Of a stretch of 47,979 nucleotides of DNA, positions 19,743-26,168 are shown in pieces. This stretch comes from an uncultured Alphaproteobacteria bacterium (GTDB taxonomy: Bacteria > Pseudomonadota > Alphaproteobacteria > Micropepsales > Micropepsaceae). The stretch lies in contig CAIUCH010000043.1 in the NCBI GenBank assembly GCA_903897605.1, positions 1 to 47,979 on the forward strand. The letters are read 5' to 3'. The position numbers and the translations under genes were made by a program. The number at the start of each line of letters is the position of its first letter. Position 1 is the stretch's first letter. Under the pieces are notes generated by a model. That model had not been told where the DNA came from. It worked only from the letters and a program-made list of their open reading frames with translations, and did no database searches.

Positions 19743-20606
19743 CTAGAAGTCCAATCCAATATCGAGATTGGCGGCGCTGTGTGTGATCGCGCCTGAGCTG
19801 ATATAGTCGACGCCGGTTTGCGCGATGGCGCGCACGCTTCCCAGCGTGACATTTCCCGACGCTTCCAGCACCGCACGGCCCTTCGCCAGCGCGACGGCGC
19901 GCCGCAAATCATCAATTGTCATATTGTCGAGCAGGATCGTGTCAGCCCCGAGCGACAAGGCCTCCTCGAGTTGCGCCAAGGTATCCACTTCGATTTCGAC
20001 CTTGACCATGTGACCCAGGCCCTTGCGCACGCGCGCCAGGGCCGGACCGATGCCGCCAGCCGCCGCGATGTGATTGTCCTTGATCAGCACCGCGTCATCC
20101 AGGCCGAAGCGATGGTTGAAGCCGCCGCCGCAGCGAACCGCATATTTCTGCAGAATTCTAAGATTGGGGAGGGTCTTGCGGGTACAGACGATGCACGCCT
20201 TCGTCCCCTTGACGGCGTCGACAAGGGCCGCGGTCGCGGTGGCGACCCCGGACAGATGGCCGGCAAAGTTCAACGCCACTCGTTCTGCCGTGAGAATGCC
20301 GCGGGCTGTACCGGAAACCGTGGCGAGCAGGGTGCCCTTTTCAATCGCGCTGCCGTCGGGCGCCGCGACCACGAAATTCAACGACGGATCGACCAGCCGA
20401 AAAGCAATCTCGGCCGCGATCAAGCCGGCGACGCGGCCCGGTTTGCGCGACACCAGCCGTGCTTCGGCATTCTGGTCGGACGCAATGGTGAGCTCGGACG
20501 TGATATCTCCGGCACGGCCAATATCTTCTTCCAGCGCCGCCCGGATCTGGGGCTCGATCAGCAATCCGGCAGGCGGTCTGGTGAATTCCAGGGCGGTCGG
20601 CATCAT
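19743..20606 (-). CDS. nadC: Quinolinate phosphoribosyltransferase
   Basis: A 287-residue enzyme that condenses quinolinate with PRPP to give nicotinate mononucleotide, the last step of the de novo branch of NAD synthesis. Family motifs are present: the RKTLPNLR segment, GGGFNHRFGLDDAVLIKDNH, and LEASGNV followed by VDYISSGAITHS at the C-terminus. The ATG at 20606 overlaps the nadB TGA (ATGA), fixing the start; the frame is open much further upstream but inside nadB. It is the third gene of nadA-nadB-nadC. Confidence 0.95.
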   Translation of the reverse strand: MMPTALEFTRPPAGLLIEPQIRAALEEDIGRAGDITSELTIASDQNAEARLVSRKPGRVAGLIAAEIAFRLVDPSLNFVVAAPDGSAIEKGTLLATVSGTARGILTAERVALNFAGHLSGVATATAALVDAVKGTKACIVCTRKTLPNLRILQKYAVRCGGGFNHRFGLDDAVLIKDNHIAAAGGIGPALARVRKGLGHMVKVEIEVDTLAQLEEALSLGADTILLDNMTIDDLRRAVALAKGRAVLEASGNVTLGSVRAIAQTGVDYISSGAITHSAANLDIGLDF

Positions 20607-22174
20607 GAGTGCACGCGGCGCTGGGCAAAGTCTTCGACGCGCCCAACATCGGCCAAGGTCACGAAGGTGCGTGCGCCACTTTTTTGCGTCAGCGGGAAAT
20701 CGCTGCGCCAATGGCCACCGCGCGATTCCCGGCGCGCCAGGGCGGCCGCCGTCACCAGCCGCGCCGTCGCCAGCATGTTGAGCAATGCCGGTTCGCCGCC
20801 ACTGGCCTGTTCCAGGCGGGCAATGGTGGCGAGGGCTTCGCCCAGGCCTTCGGCGTTGCGTTCCAGGCCGACATGACGGTTCATCGCGGCGCGCAGGACA
20901 TGCGGCGGCGCAGGCAGGGCAAAGGCGATCGGCGCGGGCGGCAGGCCCCGATTTGTCCCGCTGGAGATGGTTGCCTTGACGTCCTCTGCGACGCGCGCGC
21001 CGAACACCAGCCCTTCCAGCAGGGAATTGGAAGCCAGCCGGTTGGCGCCATGAAGGCCGGTGGCCGCGCATTCACCTGCCACCCAAAGGCCCGGCAGGGA
21101 CGTACGGCCTTCGGCATCCGAGGCAATGCCGCCCATATGGTAATGGGCGGCCGGCGCCACCGGAATCGGCTGTACCGCCGGGTCGATGCCGGCGGACATG
21201 CAGGCGGCATGGACTGTGGGAAAATGATTGGCGAAATGCGCGCCGATGGCCGCGCGGCAATCCAGGACCACGCGATGGCCGCCGGCGATCTGGCGATGGA
21301 TGCCGCGCGCCACCACATCGCGCGGCGCCAATTCCGCATCGCTGTGCAACGCGGTCATGAACCGTTCGCCCTTGTCATTGATCAGCACCGCGCCTTCGCC
21401 CCGCAGCGCCTCGGTCGCCAGCGGCGCCGGGTCGCGGCCGATAGCGATCGCGGTGGGATGAAACTGGACAAACTCCGGATCGGCGATCAGTGCGCCCGCG
21501 CGCGCCGCCATCCCCAAGCCTTCGCCGCGCGCTTCCAGGGGATTGGTGGTGACGGCATAGAGCGCGCCCAGCCCGCCGGTGGCGAAGATCACCGCCCGCG
21601 CCTTGAACATGACCAGCCGGGCGTCAGCGCCGGTTCCTTGCCGGGCGAAAAGACCGACCGCGCGGCCATCTTCCATCGCCAGTTCGACGGCGTGAAAGCC
21701 TTCCAGGATCTTGATGGAGGGTGTCGCCAGGGCACGCGCGGCTAGGGTGCGGGAGATTTCCGCACCGGCGCGGTCGCCCGTGACATGCACGATACGAGCC
21801 CTGGAATGCGCCGCCTCGCGCCCCAGCGCCAAGGCACCGCTGGCATCGCGGTCGAACGGCGTGCCCATCGCCACCAGATCGGCGATACGGTCCGGTGCTT
21901 CGCGCGCCACCAGATTGACGATTTTGGGATCACAAAGCCCTGCGCCGGCCGCTATCGTATCGGCGGCGTGGCTAAGCCAGTCATCGCCTTCGCCCACCGC
22001 TGCGGCGATGCCGCCTTGGGCCCAGGCACTGGAGCCGGACGTGCCAGGCCGCGAACTGGCCAGCACCAAGGCCGGGAAGGGCGCCAGTTTCAGCGCCGTG
22101 AACAAGCCTGCGATGCCGGCGCCCAAGATGAGCGCGCCATCGGTCTCAATGACGTTGTCTATGGCGCGATTCAT
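20603..22174 (-). CDS. nadB: L-aspartate oxidase
   Basis: A 523-residue FAD enzyme that oxidises L-aspartate to iminoaspartate, the substrate of NadA. The dinucleotide-binding motif LGAGIAGLFTAL lies near residues 17-28, SSAWAQGGIAAA and the active-site region HYHMGGIASD are present, and the helical C-terminal domain contains RRESRGGHWRSDFP. The length is typical. It starts four bases after the nadA stop and overlaps nadC by four bases, which implies coupled translation of the three enzymes. Confidence 0.95.
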   Translation of the reverse strand: MNRAIDNVIETDGALILGAGIAGLFTALKLAPFPALVLASSRPGTSGSSAWAQGGIAAAVGEGDDWLSHAADTIAAGAGLCDPKIVNLVAREAPDRIADLVAMGTPFDRDASGALALGREAAHSRARIVHVTGDRAGAEISRTLAARALATPSIKILEGFHAVELAMEDGRAVGLFARQGTGADARLVMFKARAVIFATGGLGALYAVTTNPLEARGEGLGMAARAGALIADPEFVQFHPTAIAIGRDPAPLATEALRGEGAVLINDKGERFMTALHSDAELAPRDVVARGIHRQIAGGHRVVLDCRAAIGAHFANHFPTVHAACMSAGIDPAVQPIPVAPAAHYHMGGIASDAEGRTSLPGLWVAGECAATGLHGANRLASNSLLEGLVFGARVAEDVKATISSGTNRGLPPAPIAFALPAPPHVLRAAMNRHVGLERNAEGLGEALATIARLEQASGGEPALLNMLATARLVTAAALARRESRGGHWRSDFPLTQKSGARTFVTLADVGRVEDFAQRRVHS

Positions 22175-22178
22175 GCCG

Positions 22179-23192
22179 TCAGGCTTTCACCGCCAGCATG
22201 CGCTCGATCGCCACCCGGGCGCGTGCCGAGACCGAGGGATCGATCACCACTTCCGTGGTCATGGTCTGCAGCGAATGAAGAATGCCGTCCAGGGTGATGC
22301 GCTTCATATGGGGGCAGAGATTGCAGGGGCGCACAAACTCGATGTCGGGATATTCCACCGCGACATTGTCGCTCATCGAACATTCGGTGATCATCACCAC
22401 CCGTGCGGGATGATGCTTTCCCACATAACCGACCATGGCGGCGGTCGAGCCGGCGAAATCGGCTTCCGCCACCACTTCTGGCGGGCATTCGGGATGCGCC
22501 AGAACAGTGACGCCAGGATGCTGCGCGCGATAGGCGCGGATTTCCGCGGCCGTGAAACGCTCATGCACTTCACAGGAACCCGCCCAGGTGATCACTTTGA
22601 TGCCGGTCTTGGCCGCGACATTGCGCGCAAGATATTGGTCCGGGATCATGATCACCGTGTCGGTGCGAAATTCCTTGGCGATGATCTCCACGATCCGCAC
22701 CGCATTGCCCGAAGTGCAGCAGATGTCGCTTTCCGCTTTGACATCGGCGGAGGTGTTCACATAGGTCACCACCGGCAGGCCGGGATGCTTTTGGCGCAAC
22801 AGCCGCACATCGGCGCCAGTGATGGATGCGGCCAGCGAGCAGCCGGCCTTGGCATCCGGGATCAGCACGGTCTTTTCGGGTGAAAGAATCTTCGAGGTCT
22901 CAGCCATGAAATGCACACCGGCCTGCACGATAACGTCGGCATCGGTACGGGCGGCTTCGCGCGCCAGGGCCAGACTGTCGCCGGTGAAATCGCTGACGCA
23001 ATGGTAGATTTCCGGCGTCATGTAGTTATGACCCAGAATGACCGCGTTCTTCTCCCGCTTGAGGCGATTGATCTCGGCGATCAAAGGCGCGTGAACCGGC
23101 CATTCGATTTGGGGAATGACCCTTGCCACCCGGGCGTACAGGCCGCTCGTGGCCCGTGCGACGGCGTTGGTATAGGCAAGCTCGACTCCCAT
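22179..23192 (-). CDS. nadA: Quinolinate synthase
   Basis: A 337-residue [4Fe-4S] enzyme that joins iminoaspartate and dihydroxyacetone phosphate to form quinolinate. The likely cluster ligands are Cys118 (AGCSLA), Cys207 (WAGSCEVHE) and Cys293 (PCNLCPHMK), with GHNYM near residue 54 and ICCTSGNAV around 157-165. Translation starts at the ATG at 23192, preceded by GGGAGA. It is the first gene of the nad operon. Upstream lie two palindromes and an intrinsic terminator, described separately, which suggest repression of the operon by a dimeric regulator such as the NadQ-like protein encoded nearby. Confidence 0.95.
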
Positions 23193-23228
23193 GCGACTCT
23201 CCCGTGTGTCCCTTGCTACCGTCTAATA

Positions 23229-23245
23229 ATGCTCAATTCGAGTAT
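23229..23245. promoter_or_regulatory. Palindromic operator candidate 1 upstream of nadA
   Basis: ATGCTCAATTCGAGTAT is an imperfect 17-bp dyad lying 37 bases before the nadA start. It overlaps a TATACT -10-like hexamer on the minus strand (23246-23241), a position suited to repression. It shares the half-site ATGCTCA with a second palindrome at 23293-23309. I infer a NadQ-type operator; the sequence alone does not prove which protein binds. Confidence 0.5.
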
Positions 23246-23256
23246 ATATCTGGGGC

Positions 23257-23281
23257 AAAAAACCCGGCATTCAAGAGCCGG
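23257..23281 (-). terminator. Intrinsic terminator between the SRPBCC gene and nadA
   Basis: On the minus strand a CCGGC / GCCGG stem with an 8-base loop is followed by GTTTTTTG, a good intrinsic terminator. It is 144 bases beyond the SRPBCC stop and 65 bases before the nadA start, so it would insulate nadA from the ArsR operon. It lies exactly between the two nadA palindromes; a role in attenuation cannot be ruled out. Confidence 0.65.
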
Positions 23282-23292
23282 TCAGCAGGTTA

Positions 23293-23309
23293 ATGCTACA
23301 CCTGAGCAT
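23293..23309. promoter_or_regulatory. Palindromic operator candidate 2 upstream of nadA
   Basis: ATGCTACACCTGAGCAT is a 17-bp dyad with ATGCT/AGCAT arms. Its reverse complement matches candidate 1 at 12 of 17 positions. The centres of the two sites are 64 bases apart, about six helical turns. A promoter-like pair on the minus strand, TTGACC (23320-23315) and TAGCAT (23298-23293) with a 16-base spacer, overlaps this site. Confidence 0.45.
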
Positions 23310-23424
23310 AAGGAGGTCAAGGCCACCGACCCCACCGTCCGGCATGGCTGACCCTCTGGAAGGGCCTTTTGCCCGGGCCTCCCGACGGGATTTGCCGCGC
23401 TTTCCGGGCCTTTGCGGAACGCGA

Positions 23425-23907
23425 TCAGGTCTCCAGCAAGCGCGCCAGCTTGTCGAAGCTCTGGCCCCAACCCTGCTCCATGCCCTGCAGCATGCCGACC
23501 GCCATGGGGACCAGCGCTTTGGCAACGGTGGTCATCTCCATCAAGGTCCCATCGGGGTGATCGGAAAAAGTGACGGTGGTGAGAGCATCCATGAACCGCT
23601 CGCCATTAGGTCCGACCGGTTCATTCTCGAACACCAGCCTGCGGCCCGGAACGATTTCGCGATAGCGCTTCACCATCGGCATATCCATGTCGTAGGGCGT
23701 ATTCTTGGGCCCATGCATGGTGATGTGAAGGACACCGCCGACCTTGATATCGCCGTCCACCACCGGATTGGTGAATTGCTCCGGACCCCACCATTGTTTC
23801 AGCATGGCGGTGTCGGTCCAGGCCCGCCACACCAGATCGCGCGGAGCCTTCAGCACGCGGGAGATGGTAACACTGCGCTCGGCGTGAATCGTCGGCATTG
23901 CGGTCAT
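23425..23907 (-). CDS. SRPBCC (AHSA1-type) domain protein
   Basis: A 160-residue protein of the START/Bet v1-like SRPBCC superfamily, the type related to the activator of Hsp90 ATPase C-terminal domain. Typical features are the opening SVTISRVLKAPRDLVWRAWT, the WWGPEQ segment and a Gly/Met-rich C-terminal helix MLQGMEQGWGQSFDKLARLL. The fold binds hydrophobic ligands in a central cavity; the ligand is unknown. The ATG at 23907 has GGAAGGA upstream and overlaps the ArsR stop (ATGA). The ArsR plus SRPBCC pairing is common in bacteria. Confidence 0.88.
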   Translation of the reverse strand: MTAMPTIHAERSVTISRVLKAPRDLVWRAWTDTAMLKQWWGPEQFTNPVVDGDIKVGGVLHITMHGPKNTPYDMDMPMVKRYREIVPGRRLVFENEPVGPNGERFMDALTTVTFSDHPDGTLMEMTTVAKALVPMAVGMLQGMEQGWGQSFDKLARLLET

Positions 23908-24302
23908 GATTTTTTCCTTCCCGTGGGAGCCGGTAATTTGCTGGCATGGTGTTGCGGCCTGGTCTTGCGCCTTGGCTTTGCGACCCGGTGCTGCACTTTG
24001 GCGAGATAGGCTTCCAGCCGGTCCAATCGTGCTTCCCAGAGCCGGCGATAATCCTCCAGCCATTCGTCGACGCTTTTCAAAGCTTGCGGCTCCAACCGGC
24101 AGGGCCGGGTTTGCGCGTCCCGGCTTCTGGAAATCAGACCGGAGCGCTCCAGCACCTTTAGATGCTTGGAGACGGCCGGCTGGCTCATGTCGAACGGCGC
24201 GGCAAGTTCACCCACCGATGTCTCGCCCAGCGCCAGCCGCGCCAGGATCGCGCGGCGGGTGGGATCGGCCAAGGCTTGGAATGTGCTGGACAATCTGTCC
24301 AT
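23904..24302 (-). CDS. ArsR-family transcriptional regulator
   Basis: A 132-residue winged-helix repressor. The DNA-recognition helix lies in DMSQPAVSKHLKVLERSGLI (around 39-58), after LADPTRRAILARL, the usual opening of this family. No Cys metal-binding motif is visible, so it is probably a non-metal-sensing ArsR, as is usual for those paired with SRPBCC genes. The C-terminal tail is rich in Lys and Arg. It starts 16 bases downstream of a perfect palindrome that probably mediates autoregulation and is coupled to the SRPBCC gene. Confidence 0.9.
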   Translation of the reverse strand: MDRLSSTFQALADPTRRAILARLALGETSVGELAAPFDMSQPAVSKHLKVLERSGLISRSRDAQTRPCRLEPQALKSVDEWLEDYRRLWEARLDRLEAYLAKVQHRVAKPRRKTRPQHHASKLPAPTGRKKS

Positions 24303-24681: not shown

Positions 24682-25638
24682 TCAACGTCGCACCCCCAGG
24701 CGCAGGCCGGGCGCGGGCCGTTCCCGCAACACTTCGCGGCGAAACCGGAAAAGCTCTGCTGGCCGGCCGCGGGCGGAGGCCGCGAATTTCCCGGTGCCTT
24801 CGACCAAGCCCTGTTCGCCGACCAGGCGGCGGAAATTCTGTTTGTGCAGGCGCCTGCCCAAAAGCGATTCCACGGTGCGCTGCAATTCCAGAAGGGTGAA
24901 GGAGGGCGCCATCAGTTCGAACACCACCGGGCGGTATTTCATCTTGGCCCGCAGGCGCGCGATCGCGGTCGCCAGAATGCGGCGATGATCGAACATCATC
25001 GCCGCGCCCAATGTTTCTTCCGCCCGGCCGCCATTGTCGCGCGCGAACTCCTGCACCAGCCCCGCCTCGTAAAGAAGCTCATAGCGTTCCAGAACTTTCT
25101 CTTCGTCCCAGGCGACGCCGTCGGTGCCAAAACACAGACGAACCCGGTCGCGGCGCAGTTCGGCTGCCTTGGCGTCGTTCGCGGCTTTCACGAAAGATTT
25201 CAGCCGGGGCAGGATGACGCCCTCGATCATTCTGGGCTTGGCGTCGCGCCAATCCTCCCACGGGAAATAATGATACCAGCCACGCCAGCGCGTATCGCGG
25301 GCCGCCGCAGCAGCAGCGTCCTCATCCTGCCGCGTCAGCGCCAGATATCCGATCGAGACCACACGCCCGTCCGCGCCGCCGCCCGCACCGGCGGGGGCGC
25401 GGCGGCCATGATCGCCGAAGGTGTAGAGCTGTTCGGTGTAGCCCAGATCAAAATGGGTTTGTTCGCCCACCCATTTGCGCAGGCCCTGTTCCAAGGTGCG
25501 CTGGGAGCCCGGATCGAATGGACCGAACGGCAGCGCGTCCTCGTCGCCGTCATGCGCAACCACCAGGGCGCAGGGCCGTTCGCCTTCGACCGACACGATC
25601 GCCGCCGAAAGGCCGATGCTGATAGCGCCGCGGCTCAC
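24682..25638 (-). CDS. nadQ: NadQ-like NAD biosynthesis regulator (Nudix-related)
   Basis: A 318-residue protein with an N-terminal Nudix-like domain and a C-terminal winged helix, the layout of NrtR-type and NadQ-type (COG4111) NAD repressors. The Nudix helix region (about 39-63, GPFDPGSQRTLEQGLRKWV...) keeps the spacing but lacks the REUXEE catalytic acids, so it should sense a ligand, not hydrolyse one. YTEQLYTFGDHGR (68-80) is typical of the family. The wing region contains FTLLELQRTVE, NFRRLV and GRPAELFRF. A GTG start at 25638 overlaps the phosphatase stop (GTGA). The symbol is assigned from family resemblance and from the nadABC operon 1.5 kb away. Confidence 0.75.
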   Translation of the reverse strand: MSRGAISIGLSAAIVSVEGERPCALVVAHDGDEDALPFGPFDPGSQRTLEQGLRKWVGEQTHFDLGYTEQLYTFGDHGRRAPAGAGGGADGRVVSIGYLALTRQDEDAAAAAARDTRWRGWYHYFPWEDWRDAKPRMIEGVILPRLKSFVKAANDAKAAELRRDRVRLCFGTDGVAWDEEKVLERYELLYEAGLVQEFARDNGGRAEETLGAAMMFDHRRILATAIARLRAKMKYRPVVFELMAPSFTLLELQRTVESLLGRRLHKQNFRRLVGEQGLVEGTGKFAASARGRPAELFRFRREVLRERPAPGLRLGVRR

Positions 25639-26153
25639 AGATCGACCAATGGAAAAACCGTGGTGACGCCTTCCGCCACCATCAGCGGCTGGCCCATCAC
25701 CTCCAAGGCCGCCGTCATGCGGCCGCCGCGCCCCAGGGCATCGTCGGCATGACGCACGAACAGGGTGTTGGGACTGGCGTGCGGGGCGCGCCGGCGCATC
25801 GCCAAGGCGATTTCGACTTCACGGTCCCGGCCCAGGCGGTCGCACAGCACCGTGAATGCCGACGCCATCGAACGGCTTATGCCCGCCCAGCAATGGATCA
25901 ACAATGGAGCCCGCCCGTCCCAACTGCGGGCAAATGCGATCAGCTGGTCAACATGTTCGCGCCCCGGGGGATGCTCGGCGGTCGCCGGATCGCTGACATC
26001 GTTGATACCCAGGCGAAGGTGGCGGTCAGGGTCAAATCCGGACGGAGTGAGGATCATATGCTGGGGCGAAAGCAAGGTCACCAGATGTGAAGGCCGGTGG
26101 CTTTCAAGCGCATCGTCAAGACCGGACAGTGGGGCGACCAAAAGACGGGGCAT
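25635..26153 (-). CDS. Cysteine-based protein tyrosine phosphatase-like protein
   Basis: A 172-residue protein with the CX5R phosphatase loop HCWAGISRS (Cys88, Arg94) and an upstream loop NDVSDP (51-56) able to supply the general acid Asp. The size and motif fit the dual-specificity or tyrosine phosphatase fold common in alphaproteobacteria; the substrate is unknown and could be a protein or a small phosphorylated metabolite. The ATG at 26153 has AGGTG upstream; a GTG at 26168, directly after the HD gene stop, is an alternative. It overlaps the regulator gene by four bases. Confidence 0.8.
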   Translation of the reverse strand: MPRLLVAPLSGLDDALESHRPSHLVTLLSPQHMILTPSGFDPDRHLRLGINDVSDPATAEHPPGREHVDQLIAFARSWDGRAPLLIHCWAGISRSMASAFTVLCDRLGRDREVEIALAMRRRAPHASPNTLFVRHADDALGRGGRMTAALEVMGQPLMVAEGVTTVFPLVDL

Positions 26154-26168
26154 GGCTGTATTTAGCAC

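Follow-up and report, generated by a model that had tools for sequence, protein, structure and literature searches.

A terminator-like hairpin at a constant step before a predicted NadQ operator in alphaproteobacterial nadA leaders

Introduction

The closest described relative of the locus examined here is the NadQ regulon of nadABC (PMC5343134; PDB 7q91-7q94), with which it shares the operator consensus, the target operon and the encoding of NadQ near nadABC. A comparative paper of 2016 gives the NadQ consensus as ttATRCTCannntGAGYATaa (PMC5343134). Its passages on NadQ treat palindromic sites and the genes they control, and present neither a promoter-fused upstream operator nor a downstream operator coupled to a terminator; "terminator" and "roadblock" are absent from the vocabulary of the main text.

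Other bacterial systems provide examples of repression by roadblock. LacI, CcpA and CodY can be bound downstream of a promoter and stop the elongating polymerase (PMC4132739; 2014), and the EcoRI Gln111 roadblock halts Escherichia coli RNA polymerase with the RNA end 14 nt upstream of the site (PMC5499547). For LacI, about 90% of termination was attributed to Mfd, and a roadblock 30 bp from the promoter passed more polymerase than one at longer spacing; in the passages of that paper concerned with the leak, the authors raise the Mfd resistance of a polymerase that still holds sigma, and their modelling at 30 bp favoured easier dislodging of LacI (PMC4132739). In the trpRBA intergenic region of Chlamydia, the repressor YtgR likewise sits on an internal operator and inhibits read-through from an upstream promoter, and the passages of the report on this operator describe no pairing with an intrinsic terminator at fixed distance (PMC7755916; 2020).

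A layout with all three components, a hairpin, a T-rich stretch and a downstream protein site, has been reported for the terminator of RNA polymerase I, where the protein is Reb1, Nsi1 or TTF1 (PMC12366685; 2025). There the polymerase pauses 15 bp before the protein site, within the T-rich stretch, and roadblock, T-rich stretch and RNA hairpin together cause release (PMC12366685). That system is eukaryotic, stands at the end of the rRNA gene and has some 20 nt between its hairpin and the RNA end, which makes backtracking necessary (PMC12366685).

Here we describe the leader of nadA in a window of 47,979 nucleotides, the whole of the stretch that we analysed, from an uncultured alphaproteobacterium of the Micropepsaceae (contig CAIUCH010000043.1), and its counterparts in related genomes. 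NadQ and its motif are already known. Open-access literature on NadQ, on roadblocks with terminators or operators and on nadA leaders yielded no bacterial description of the layout reported below, which we interpret, by way of an inferred mechanism, as a variant of roadblock repression.

Materials and methods

We gathered 257 nadA loci, from which removal of 8 duplicates left 249 unique loci. O2, the operator nearer nadA, was called in relatives at one mismatch or fewer, with GAG preferred in the right half, and O1, the upstream operator, was counted as found when it lay at most 140 nt upstream of O2. NadQ was scored as present at E 1e-30 or better, a threshold passed by 101 of the 105 genomes with any match. 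Co-occurrence of NadQ and O2 was tabulated in a sample of the class, for 147 loci from 146 of its 161 nadA-bearing genomes.

Results and discussion

Read on the minus strand toward nadA, the leader in the window contains TTGACC, O1, a hairpin, a T-tract and O2, in that order (Table 1). The gene for the NadQ orthologue lies about 1.5 kb 5' of nadA, and between the two genes (23425-24302, minus strand) lies a pair comprising an ArsR-type regulator and an AHSA1/SRPBCC protein. A minus-strand open frame at 25635-26168, sharing 4 bases with the start of nadQ, had no Pfam or NCBIfam match at 0.001; it contains HCWAGISRS, which we take to be a tyrosine-phosphatase-like signature. NAPRTase (PF04095) was not matched in the genome of the window, which is 95.78% complete, and nicotinate salvage via PncB may be absent from it.

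Table 1. Predicted control elements and genes of the nadABC region in the window, in minus-strand order
Feature	Position	Strand	Remarks
nadQ, repressor with C-terminal NrtR-type winged helix	24682..25638	-	PDB 7q91 'NADQ transcription factor' E 5.1e-84; PF21906
P1 -35 element TTGACC (predicted)	23315..23320	-	5' of O1
O1, upstream NadQ-type operator (predicted)	23293..23309	-	reads ATGCTCAGGTGTAGCAT on minus strand; one mismatch to consensus
P1 -10 element TAGCAT (predicted)	23293..23298	-	right half of O1; spacer of 16 to TTGACC; 9/12 consensus matches
Leader hairpin CCGGC-loop(8)-GCCGG	23264..23281	-	stem-loop of intrinsic-terminator-like element
T-tract	23257..23262	-	directly after hairpin; -17 to -12 from first base of O2
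O2, NadQ operator (predicted)	23229..23245	-	reads ATACTCGAATTGAGCAT on minus strand; sole exact consensus match in genome
nadA, quinolinate synthase	22179..23192	-	PF02445 E 1.5e-110; TIGR00550
nadB, L-aspartate oxidase	20603..22174	-	NF005701 E 1.9e-208
nadC, nicotinate-nucleotide diphosphorylase	19743..20594	-	TIGR00078 E 1.1e-94; start approximate

The initial annotation of this DNA had drawn attention to two related palindromes upstream of nadA, and its description proved accurate: O1 and O2 lie where it placed them, match each other at 12 of 17 positions in opposite orientation, have centres 64 bp apart, overlap a TTGACC-N16-TAGCAT pair and a TATACT box, respectively, and enclose a terminator-like stem-loop with a T-tract, on the minus strand and reading toward nadA. 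An exact match to ATRCTC-N5-GAGYAT occurs in the 2,788,515-base genome at O2 only, and eight sites genome-wide have one mismatch, among them O1, whose right half is the asymmetric TAGCAT. Around the other seven, four stop-to-stop frames of at least 100 codons were viewed by eye for each site, and no NAD gene was recognised in them that would point to a wider NadQ regulon in this genome; five of the seven fall within such a frame.

Both operators recur 5' of nadA in many relatives. O2 has a counterpart at 190 of the 249 unique nadA loci, nearly all of them from Alphaproteobacteria, with 151 of the 190 exact and 59 loci lacking it, and the refuting condition set by the initial annotation, a motif without conservation 5' of nadA in relatives, is thus not borne out. 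Across the class sample, NadQ and O2 were both present at 92 loci and both missing at 49, NadQ occurred alone at six, and O2 never occurred alone. One of the six exceptions, L187, appears by eye to carry a degenerate form of the same layout. Because the sites match the consensus, a NadQ orthologue is encoded close to nadA and O2 is found only together with NadQ, we read them as NadQ-type operators, in agreement with the initial annotation: O1 and O2 look like binding sites through which the repressor of NAD synthesis would control nadABC. O1 is probably the weaker site, with TAGCAT in place of GAGCAT, since its right half must double as a -10 element.

That -10 element would belong to a predicted promoter, P1, fused to O1, with transcription starting near 23286; O2 would then lie downstream of the start, as deduced from the consensus, at about +42. 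Among the 122 loci with O1, an exact TTGAC precedes the right half of O1 with a spacer of 15-18 in 81 (0.4% in shuffles), and in 71 of those 81 the spacer is 16 or 17. Scores for P1 are also above those of shuffles (mean 8.6 vs 7.1), and in 59 of 74 hairpin-bearing loci T is the first base of the right half of O1. Most simply read, the half-site GAGCAT was altered to TAGCAT so as to act as a -10 element.

The leaders of relatives frequently share a terminator-like element as well, and its placement is regular. Such an element lies within 75 nt before O2 at 120 of the 190 loci (38.5 ± 5.4 in shuffles); windows placed further upstream as controls contained one at 39/188, 26/187 and 18/185 loci, and the 75 nt downstream of O2 at 10/190. 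The T-tract starts 13-21 nt before O2 in 104 of the 190 leaders, with a peak at 18, compared with 6.4 ± 2.5 (maximum 14) for the same band, -21 to -13, in 200 dinucleotide shuffles; this band was chosen after the distribution of positions had been seen, the 18-nt step having first been noticed by eye. Without any conditioning, 104 of the 120 detected terminators fall in the band, and real terminators peak at -18, a peak that shuffled ones do not have. Over all 190 loci, the T fraction at -18 to -12 is 0.50-0.72. By scan, the other 86 loci with O2 are without the element.

By group, the 104 in-band elements come from the family of the window (34/36), from named records (34/68) and from the remaining loci (36/86, or 34/83 with three duplicates of earlier records removed), the last lying outside that family and having been fetched after the idea was formed. 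The loci are related rather than independent, and as a correction one locus was drawn per family, which gave the element in about 19.6 of 42 families; in total it occurs in 23 of the 42 sampled families that have O2. At the 59 loci without O2, 10 had a terminator-like element in the 225 nt upstream, vs 101 of the 190 with O2. The string TTTT-N13-operator was present in 29 of 387 genomes (0 for the reversed control), and 25 of the 29 sites immediately precede nadA and are correctly oriented.

At all 74 loci where both hairpin and O1 were found, the two operators flank the hairpin; its position downstream of P1 argues against its being a read-through terminator of the upstream gene. The distance from O1 to the hairpin varies (sd 11.7), as does that from O2 to nadA (sd 41.9), whereas the hairpin-to-O2 distance has an sd of 1.2, a spread narrowed by the -21 to -13 band used for selection.

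Stems are of 5-7 bp in 81 of the 104 hairpins, the median hairpin energy is -9.0 kcal/mol, and the sequences are diverse, the 3' arms having 35 distinct terminal 4-mers. The arms appear to covary, as judged from a swap test on 94 leaders (one locus per family or named record, not chosen for a hairpin): pairing of each arm with its own partner scored 13.4, vs 10.4 ± 0.23 for swapped partners (maximum 11.2 of 5000), and 41% of loci exceeded the 90th percentile of their own swaps, while a control region 60 nt upstream gave 9.2 vs 8.9 (p 0.10). On a MAFFT alignment of 36 leaders, whose stems and loops vary in length, RNAalifold found no base pairs, and the evidence for covariation is therefore the swap test.

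In the window itself, a GC-rich hairpin followed immediately by a T-tract on the non-template strand has the layout of an intrinsic terminator, the release itself being predicted. The hairpin has an energy of -10.6 kcal/mol (z -1.34), with 21 of 200 shuffles folding equally well, and a terminator scan of the region found 1 vs 0.5 in shuffles; its significance stems from the comparison of relatives, not from energy. An Rfam search of 23100-23500 returned four matches, all far under the gathering score (E 1.6-2.7), and no family of known structured leader RNA was above threshold there.

Sequence comparison establishes the sites, their order, the fixed distance between hairpin and O2, the covariation and the link to NadQ. 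On this basis we propose, with a probability of about 0.5, that NadQ on O1 blocks initiation and that NadQ on O2 forms a roadblock, stopping RNA polymerase in the T-tract, where the hairpin brings about release. The roadblock enters this proposal because the step from hairpin to O2 is constant while the distances on either side of that unit vary. Under such a scheme, nadABC would be transcribed from one promoter, P1, whose output NadQ would repress twice. On O1, NadQ would cover the spacer and -10 element of P1 and so block initiation. Polymerases that escape would make a short leader with the GC-rich hairpin and T-tract, and would then meet NadQ on O2. A polymerase halted by a DNA-bound protein is expected to have its RNA end roughly 10-15 bp before the protein; if the 14-nt distance of the EcoRI Gln111 roadblock (PMC5499547) is applied to NadQ at O2, the RNA end of the halted polymerase would lie within the T-tract or at its far edge, some 5-8 nt beyond the hairpin, which is the point of RNA release in intrinsic termination. 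The restriction enzyme used as roadblock presumably covers a few bases past its own site, and the RNA end would then come closer to 8 nt from the hairpin. In this way NadQ on O2 would make a short terminator efficient. Once NadQ leaves (going by the title of a 2022 structure paper, it is reportedly ATP-responsive), polymerase would read through more readily and nadABC would be made. Binding of NadQ at this locus, P1 as the start, halting of polymerase at O2 and NadQ dependence of termination are the steps that we infer.

Published roadblocks bear on this proposal in both directions. A LacI roadblock near the promoter is leaky, whichever cause is correct, and a terminator placed where polymerase stalls would be of use; where termination at LacI is attributed largely to Mfd, the nadA leader has a hairpin and T-tract at the expected stall position. 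As a counterpoint, a LexA roadblock gave no efficient termination of RNA polymerase I where backtracking was needed (PMC12366685). The spacing in the nadA leader, unlike that of the RNA polymerase I terminator, would need no backtracking, and the protein would be a metabolic repressor acting in a leader; the likeness between the two is one of layout, not of membership. Tentatively, and at somewhat less than even odds, we suggest that the repressor on DNA and the RNA hairpin with its T-tract together form one composite, switchable terminator under metabolite control in the nadA leader, a bacterial counterpart of the RNA polymerase I terminator whose geometry would be fixed in 23 of 42 sampled alphaproteobacterial families having the operator.

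A constitutive attenuator would account for much of the same arrangement. Hairpin and T-tract would then end a fixed share of P1 transcripts regardless of NadQ, giving low basal nadABC, and O2 would be an ordinary second operator; the element does resemble a normal intrinsic terminator and in principle needs no helper. The constant step to O2, peaking at -18 where other leader distances vary, has no explanation on these terms, however, and we regard such an attenuator as unlikely. Attenuation had already been raised in the initial annotation without its form being spelled out, and the part of that suggestion that stands is a terminator at a constant distance from the operator that follows it.

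It is also conceivable that the hairpin insulates against upstream read-through and that nadA is transcribed from a second promoter, P2, overlapping O2, with its -35 element, in the family of the window, being the TTGAA of the hairpin loop. In that family the loop CTTGAA (-30 to -25 from O2, e.g. L086-L114) is strongly conserved, as is ATAT before O2, and the conservation of the loop (TTGAA) goes beyond what a terminator would need, so that it may have another role. P2 scores are somewhat raised there (at least 8 in 18 of 34 loci, vs about 22% when all hairpin loci are shuffled), so that this family may have a second promoter. CTTGAAA also occurs at -28 or -29 in L063, L067, L181 and L188, in which no hairpin was detected, and in L050 (and L086) TTGACC or TTGCCC ends the T-tract 16-18 nt before the GAGYAT of O2, echoing the TTGAC-TAGCAT pair of O1. 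Over the 104 loci, promoters whose -10 element falls on the right half of O2 or beyond it score a mean of 7.03 vs 6.69 in shuffles (7 in the window), a small excess that we consider unlikely to mark a promoter. Outside the family, by contrast, P2 scores resemble those of shuffles (at least 8 in 14 of 70), the region around -29, where a -35 element would be expected, is unconserved, and L050, L069 and L083 have, by reading, no TTGA at -29. Candidates for P2 in the window score 7-8 of 12 and P1 scores 9, the two scans spanning different numbers of positions and each being compared with its own shuffles. A hairpin downstream of P1, as at all 74 loci, would on these terms make P1 useless, and we consider an insulated second promoter improbable.

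NadQ on O2 might instead hold polymerase poised just past the hairpin, which would prevent backtracking until NadQ leaves and transcription resumes. In vitro, a transcript hairpin stabilised colliding polymerases instead of releasing them, extending the life of a head-on collided pair from about 6 to 150 min (PMC13082048; 2026 preprint), a result that also counts as a counterpoint to release at O2. A T-tract beside the hairpin would destabilise a waiting complex, though, and the T-tract is evident across all 190 loci; we therefore think a poised polymerase very unlikely.

The initial annotation had further suggested cooperative repression, possibly with DNA looping, between sites about six turns apart, and two operators of one repressor do flank the region, 64 bp apart in the window. 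At the loci with a hairpin the layout is extended, with O1 and O2 separated by 55-78 bp in 71 of 74 and by 94-131 bp in three. Their spacing has no clear helical phase at 10.5 bp in the family of the window (n=32, R 0.24, p 0.17) nor over all 74 loci (p 0.43); the 42 loci outside that family reach R 0.25 and p 0.07 at 10.5 bp and p 0.05 at 11.0 bp. Spacings of 22-34 bp at compact loci also speak against looping, which is disfavoured to the point of being extremely unlikely.

The compact layout was found at 30 loci, none with the element at the fixed step and 6 with some terminator-like match in the 75 nt. Of six positions in the tract, T occupies a mean of 4.8 in hairpin loci, 1.7 in compact loci and 2.8 in the rest, a difference partly built in by the T-rich stretch required. 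Compact leaders such as L026, L048, L057 and L079, with O1 and O2 26-28 bp apart and no hairpin, appear to be an alternative layout of NadQ control, and since compact leaders do without the element, NadQ control in itself does not require the terminator. At further loci a promoter-like pair was seen, by reading, to run directly into O2. Two loci, L023 and L051, in records labelled Acidobacteriota and Thermoanaerobaculia, also show the extended layout, and their nadA is 67% identical to that of the window; transfer or mis-binning would account for its presence in such lineages.

P1, hairpin and T-tract would together produce a leader RNA of about 30 nt, and the conserved loop of the window's family might point to a separate function for it. 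We regard such a functional short RNA as extremely unlikely, given that the loop is unconserved outside that family, that no Rfam family reaches threshold in 23100-23500 and that the fixed step to O2 would go unexplained.

In conclusion, roadblock repressors are known, but a roadblock near the promoter was leaky in one systematic study. Provided that NadQ bound at O2 does block polymerase, a conserved terminator standing roughly one polymerase front upstream of the operator would be a built-in answer to that leakiness and would tighten control of NAD synthesis. The layout also suggests a rule that can be measured, a hairpin-to-operator step of about 18 nt, for seeking similar terminator-operator pairs in other regulons.
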